Source of the DNA: Branchiostoma floridae | Taxonomy: Eukaryota > Chordata > Leptocardii > Amphioxiformes > Branchiostomatidae | Length of the DNA: 64,000 nt | NCBI RefSeq assembly: GCF_000003815.2 | Contig: NC_049997.1 | Span: 9,598,167 to 9,662,166 of the forward strand | Direction: 5' to 3' | Shown here: in pieces, positions 12,687-63,542 of the stretch | How positions within the stretch are numbered: position 1 is the first letter of the stretch | How the letters are laid out: every line of letters begins with the position of its first letter | Position numbers and translations under genes: made by a program | Notes under the pieces: model-generated | The model's database searches: none | Seen by the model: only the letters and a program-made list of their open reading frames with translations | Told to the model about the DNA's origin: nothing

Positions 12687-12698
12687 ATGGGCAACAAG
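12687..12698 (+). CDS. RSKR: RSKR exon 1 (start exon), proposed
   Basis: ATGGGCAACAAG|GTCAGC encodes MGNK and stops in phase 0 at a GT. It joins in frame to exon 2 (VSSRHS...), giving a protein of about 415 residues, close to the roughly 410 of human RSKR, which also starts with a Met-Gly. Gly2 would allow N-myristoylation. An acceptor-like TTGTCTTCAG just upstream (to 12584) suggests an earlier non-coding exon. The exon is tiny and the donor is only fair, so the start is provisional. Confidence 0.45.

Positions 12699-63542: not shown

Follow-up and report, generated by a model that had tools for sequence, protein, structure and literature searches.

Two genes with duplicated exon ends

The window, by which we mean the whole 64-kb stretch of Branchiostoma floridae DNA that was analyzed, contains two genes, RSKR and THSD7-like, whose names we adopt from the initial annotation. 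In a model assembled by hand from open frames, splice scores and TSP1-type motifs, RSKR consists of five exons on the forward strand and encodes an AGC-type kinase, and THSD7-like comprises 24 exons on the reverse strand and encodes a TSP1-repeat membrane protein. Pfam reported kinase or TSP1-type domains at E <= 0.001 in six of the eight submitted frames, in two of these six only below the curated cut-offs. The borders of four of the 24 THSD7-like exons (near 50180, 41150, 34040 and 25040) are approximate, and the donor at 26668 scores weakly as a splice site (0.8) and is uncertain in position. Judging by the exon numbering of the initial annotation, which we matched to our coordinates by order and which is to that extent inferred, the THSD7-like model is probably short of about three small exons. 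No Rfam family matched the window at gathering thresholds. A reverse-strand open frame of 276 codons (10053–10883), with a stretch close to its end that is rich in Cys and His, resembles the tail of a retroelement protein; it had no Pfam match at E <= 0.001.

Each exon border was aligned, with 60 bp on either side, to the surrounding 1.2 kb in both directions, and a score of at least 24 was required. The same segments aligned to distant parts of the window served as the null (464 comparisons), for which the 99% level was 19 and no comparison reached 24. Local copies were detected at 10 of the 58 borders in the window (scores 34 to 93), and detailed alignments of these ten (scores 37–129.5) run from the exon into the intron, which bears out the initial annotation's description of tandem duplications straddling exon-intron borders. 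The copied borders belong to eight exons, the minimum number it had given, and in two of these, RSKR exon 4 and the THSD7-like exon at 38373–38564, both ends are copied. Ten of the eleven borders that it had listed are clear; the eleventh, a merely 'possible' copy of the 5′ end of exon 9 (39144–39252, reverse strand), is a 30-bp match at 39299–39328 that scores 20, below the threshold, and was not accepted. Border 36375, which likewise scored 20, just above the 99% null level, was not counted either.

RSKR exon 4 (15331–15727, forward strand), recognized by its open frame, its splice sites and a Pkinase match (E 1.6e-42), is the parent of two copies at either end. Upstream of its acceptor at 15331 lie two copies (15012–15310; scores 129.5 and 64.5) in a 147-bp unit, each consisting of the end of intron 3 with its polypyrimidine tract, CAG and about the first 50 bases of the exon. 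Downstream of the donor at 15727, copy A (16003–16125, score 71) and copy B (16129–16228, score 85.5) both carry about 75 exon bases followed by GTAA, and the exonic differences of copy B are four synonymous and no nonsynonymous ones.

In THSD7-like, where all features lie on the reverse strand, copies are present at the donors 39766, 38373, 36916, 35150, 26668 and about 25023 and at the acceptors 38564 and 24061. The modelled exon at 39766–39923 (exon 8 in the earlier numbering) has a copy of its 3′ end with the donor, defined by alignment, at 39503–39654. The exon at 38373–38564 (exon 10), supported by the gene model and the border scan, has a 3′ copy with the donor GT at 38203–38297 (score 67.5) and a 5′ copy with the acceptor at 38633–38712 (score 58), the latter with seven synonymous and one nonsynonymous difference. 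An old copy of the 3′ end of exon 36916–37083, taken as exon 13, lies at 36704–36827 (score 37), and for exon 35150–35341, taken as exon 16, alignment shows repeated copies of the 3′ end arrayed at 34420–35056, with units of about 150 bp, some of them 99% alike. Further 3′ copies belong to exon 26668–26836, taken as exon 21 with its uncertain donor (26472–26587, score 79), and to the exon at about 25023–25175, taken as exon 23 (24906–24975, score 39, lag 68 bp); exon 23964–24061, taken as exon 24, has a 5′ copy with the acceptor at 24161–24235 (score 54).

Across the ten borders, identity between copy and parent ranges from about 65% to 97%, in keeping with the varied ages proposed before, and lags range from about 68 to 183 bp and are longer in the multi-unit arrays. 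Besides the two extra units at each end of RSKR exon 4 there are about four at exon 35150–35341, the other borders having a single copy. Reading the alignments by eye, we saw that every one of the ten borders keeps its AG or GT dinucleotide in the copy. Its directional rule, by which 3′ ends are copied downstream and 5′ ends upstream, describes what is observed and is a matter of simple geometry: whenever a tandem duplication spans a border, the additional copy comes to lie in the intron next to it.

One THSD7-like unit (39503–39825), the only one of that gene searched against the genome (513,431,437 bases in 431 contigs), had no other match, which indicates local duplication rather than a dispersed element. 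For the RSKR 5′ unit only the intronic part (15084–15330) matches elsewhere, at about 78% over 106–113 bp. The matching sequence belongs to a dispersed LTR-like repeat of about 490 bp, at its 3′ end, and one identical pair of this repeat lies about 4 kb apart on contig C18. With the THSD7-like unit unique and the exonic part of the RSKR unit local, a dispersed element was rejected as the source of the copies. The LTR-like repeat ends in CTACA, with a G after it, an ending similar to the polypyrimidine tract and CAG acceptor at RSKR exon 4, and from this similarity the acceptor looks as if it had been supplied by an old repeat insertion.

Correspondence to the mirages of amphioxus

The initial annotation knew of no named system for such copies. 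Minisatellite-like tandem duplications of exon-intron boundaries are, however, described in amphioxus under the name 'mirages', with examples in Adh3 and globin genes (PMC3087553); the name was coined at Adh3 by Canestro et al. 2002, as cited there. The globin examples described in that source concern the 5′ end of BflGb6 exon 2, with units of 150–160 bp, and the 3′ end of BflGb9 exon 2, with a unit of 157 bp. It also reports six versus three units between two haplotypes of BflGb6 and somatic instability at Adh3, and suggests from globin RT-PCR and Adh3 data that regular splicing is undisturbed by mirages (PMC3087553). Mirages are also described for PGBD5 and TnC, with imperfect tandem repeats of 60 and 108 bp at splice sites of a lancelet gene (PMC3902484). 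Among nine globin loci that we located by profile, one carries units of 150 bp that extend into the matched exon at its 5′ end, as in BflGb6, and another a 157-bp duplication of the 3′ boundary of the matched exon, as in BflGb9. Since both published globin mirages were recovered at their published unit sizes, our scan detects published mirages.

The copies in RSKR and THSD7-like are mirages of the kind already known from amphioxus, now seen in two more genes. As at Adh3 and the globins, whose units measure 150–160 bp in the globin genes, they are tandem duplications of a boundary at the 5′ or 3′ exon end, often with AG or GT kept, in the same species. They differ in the genes concerned, in the many exons affected within one gene, in identities that descend to about 65% and in being known from the assembly alone. 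With PGBD5 and TnC they share imperfect tandem copies at splice sites of lancelet genes, although in other genes, and the account in PMC3902484 cites re-sequencing support. The intron-gain model of Rogers (as cited in PMC3087553) and a potato case (PMC4974935) likewise involve tandem duplication that includes splice signals, as described there for AG/GT proto-splice sites, whereas the RSKR and THSD7-like copies sit inside existing introns, and no new intron is seen among them. Elsewhere, tandem repeats are mentioned for amphioxus huntingtin scaffolds, in a passage with nothing on borders (PMC2206037), and we found no genome-wide mirage survey in the open-licence literature. Our analysis thus adds two genes, one of them with many affected exons, to the handful of amphioxus genes with known mirages.

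Divergence between copies and exons

The exonic parts of the copies were compared with their parents at one copy per border, other units of the same array being left out. The expected synonymous share is 0.39 if transitions are given a weight of 2, the exon is taken as fully constrained and the copy as neutral. The ten window borders gave 33.5 synonymous versus 21.5 nonsynonymous differences, that is 61% versus the 39% expected (P 6e-4, binomial; 0.0085, bootstrap over loci). Decay of CpG sites was rejected as the cause, as the excess at the ten window loci is smaller yet remains once these sites are removed (22:15, P 0.007). The two published globin mirages show ratios of 9:3 and 3:1, and all twelve loci together 45.5:25.5, a share of 0.64 against 0.39 (locus bootstrap P about 0.001). 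Locus 36916 opposes the excess, with 1.5 synonymous and 7.5 nonsynonymous differences; it was kept in the main count, and the excess is stronger without it. The synonymous excess may be a new observation, and one beyond neutral decay.

A further pattern concerns adjacent units within arrays. At RSKR exon 4 their intron parts differ at 1 of 95 positions and their exon parts at 4 of 55 (P 0.06), and in the BflGb6-like array the figures are 0 of 77 versus 4 of 115 (P 0.15), while the next unit out in the latter array is without such a contrast (6/72 intronic versus 5/112 exonic). Units that are alike in the intron and different in the exon are what hybrids from allelic exchange would look like, neither contrast being significant alone. 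Lancelets are highly heterozygous, with 4.39% SNPs reported for the Chinese lancelet (PMC4284660), and with alleles this different, synonymous differences would be expected in any copy that arose from, or was exchanged with, another allele. We consider it conceivable, if rather doubtful, that intronic copies exchange with exon ends by unequal crossing-over between divergent alleles, in which case the borders would be re-templated repeatedly from nearby copies and both partners would be partly under coding constraint. If the coding-like divergence holds, the traffic between exon ends and intronic copies becomes measurable.

The same excess (45.5:25.5 over twelve loci) could be read as a sign that the copies are retained to serve as alternative splice sites or proto-exons, with a function or as a route to new introns; the AG or GT present at all ten borders and the intron-gain model proposed for the globin mirages (PMC3087553) point the same way. 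We regard this as highly unlikely, as the copies are one-ended, the copy of border 39766 is frameshifted, that of 36916 has diverged mostly at nonsynonymous sites, and the published RT-PCR data suggest undisturbed splicing (PMC3087553). Introns of B. belcheri and B. floridae are reported to have hardly any similarity (PMC4284660), and copies that are neutral would thus be expected to be confined to one species.

Exon borders and the background of tandem duplication

Short tandem duplication is widespread in this genome. Twenty random stretches (200 kb, including 15.7 kb of N) contain 25 clusters of local direct repeats that cover about 10% of the bases, with none in shuffles, and the window, with 16 such clusters in its 64 kb, is about twice as dense as these. 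For unit sizes we relied on an ungapped lag scan, which replaced a BLAST-derived histogram that was dropped because BLAST had missed a 59-bp lag reported by TRF. The scan yielded 77 clusters in 321 kb and none in five shuffled sequences (103 kb), and because shuffled DNA lacks such clusters, the copies are far beyond chance. By lag, 25 clusters fall at 10–30 bp, 14 at 40–90 bp, 30 at 100–250 bp (22 of them at 120–180 bp) and 8 above 250 bp, so that, of the 52 clusters whose units exceed 30 bp, 44 lie within 40–250 bp. This limitation of unit size may be new, and the scarcity of units above 250 bp fits a birth step on the scale of repair or replication better than ordinary unequal crossing-over. 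Two of the duplications in the repeat scan of the window lie off all modelled exons, at 42827–43730 (lags of 118–246 bp) and 56845–57563 (lag of 185 bp).

We compared borders with control points in the window, six myosin, nine globin and five TCP1 loci, together with the 20 random stretches. Outside the window, borders are the edges of profile matches; in any of the sets, some control points may fall in exons that the models lack; the sample is small (four gene sets, about 320 kb of 513 Mb), and points within a locus are not independent. In the pooled data, 16 of 198 borders (8.1%) had a local copy, as did 39 of 480 same-locus controls (8.1%) and 59 of 500 random points (11.8%), which gives an odds ratio of 0.99 for borders versus same-locus controls (95% interval 0.51–1.88); a stricter score of 32 left 14/198 and 31/480. 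In the window the rates were 10/58 (17.2%) and 26/200 (13%; odds ratio 1.39, 0.56–3.24, p = 0.40), an earlier run having given 10/58 and 31/300. The two rates rise and fall together across the gene sets, with 3/18 and 6/36 (both 17%) in the globins, 2/62 and 4/124 (both 3%) in the myosins and 1/60 (2%) and 3/120 (2.5%) in TCP1. The myosin figure is that of a more sensitive alignment, a BLAST scan of the six loci having found no cluster at an exon, and one globin locus with a 117-bp duplication just past an exon edge remained below threshold and was not counted. The random stretches yielded only 14 candidates by ab initio exon finding, which was not used. With the window removed, borders (6/140) fall below controls including random points (72/780, p = 0.07). 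No significant border excess was found in this sample, although the presence of mirages was in effect the reason for including the window and the globins, a choice that biases the comparison towards such an excess. Hence, a border-specific mechanism is not needed for mirages on these 198 borders. The initial annotation had singled out exon ends and had named, as the outcome that would speak against this, duplications no more common at borders than elsewhere; the odds ratio of 0.99 is that outcome on our sample, as distinct from the whole genome. We have not seen such a border-versus-control test in the open-licence papers on mirages.

We conclude, with a probability of about 0.85, that the copies are mirages in the sense of short tandem duplications, mostly of 40–250 bp, that straddle borders by chance and without targeting. 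Neutral local duplication, one of the options raised initially, is rated most likely, and mirages would be the trace, at exon edges, of a genome in which short tandem duplications abound. Local duplication would arise regardless of genes, possibly when staggered break ends are filled in and then joined, or through slippage during replication. Fill-in by Pol alpha-primase and subsequent end joining is described as a source of small tandem duplications at Cas9-induced breaks in mammalian cells (PMC8355091); those duplications are likewise short and sequence-independent and offer a possible birth mechanism for mirages, although for amphioxus this is an analogy only. Unequal crossing-over between very divergent alleles might then expand, shrink and partly homogenize the array. 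A duplication at a border would be tolerated as the authentic exon retains its full sequence and both splice sites, and the copy, with one of the two sites, would probably go unrecognized as an exon and decay in the intron. Three observations run against chance straddling: window borders lie slightly above controls (17.2% versus 13%, p = 0.40), the synonymous excess exceeds simple neutral decay, and the RSKR 5′ unit is not purely local in its intronic part, given the matches at about 78%.

A dedicated process that targets exon borders, whether coupled to splicing or R-loops or templated by RNA, would account for eight affected exons in one window and for the position at borders of the published mirages considered here, though the latter were noticed because they touch exons. 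It was rejected by the pooled test, the comparison without the window tends in the opposite direction, and the same type of duplication is common away from modelled exons; templating by RNA is further opposed by the intron sequence in the copies, which shows that they do not derive from spliced RNA. We therefore judge targeting very improbable. An assembly artefact through merged haplotypes or mis-assembled repeats is hardly credible, since most copies share 65–95% identity with the parent and carry changes specific to single units, and the two published mirages were recovered in the same assembly, despite the high heterozygosity of lancelets (PMC4284660), the aberrant assembly reported for one globin mirage in an early draft (PMC3087553) and the 99% likeness of the units at 34673–35071.

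Other repeats were seen besides these duplications. RSKR intron 2 contains a perfect 17-bp minisatellite of 5.8 units (14056–14200); immediately downstream of it, part of the unit recurs in inverted orientation. Two arrays of 16-bp minisatellites, reverse-complementary to each other in their units (55188–55271 and 56071–56149), lie about 800 bp apart and resemble the ends of an inverted-repeat transposon. In one of the random stretches (its positions 5219–7624), four open frames of 534 bp with splice-like ends, whose starts are 585, 585 and 702 bp apart, form a candidate tandem coding array.
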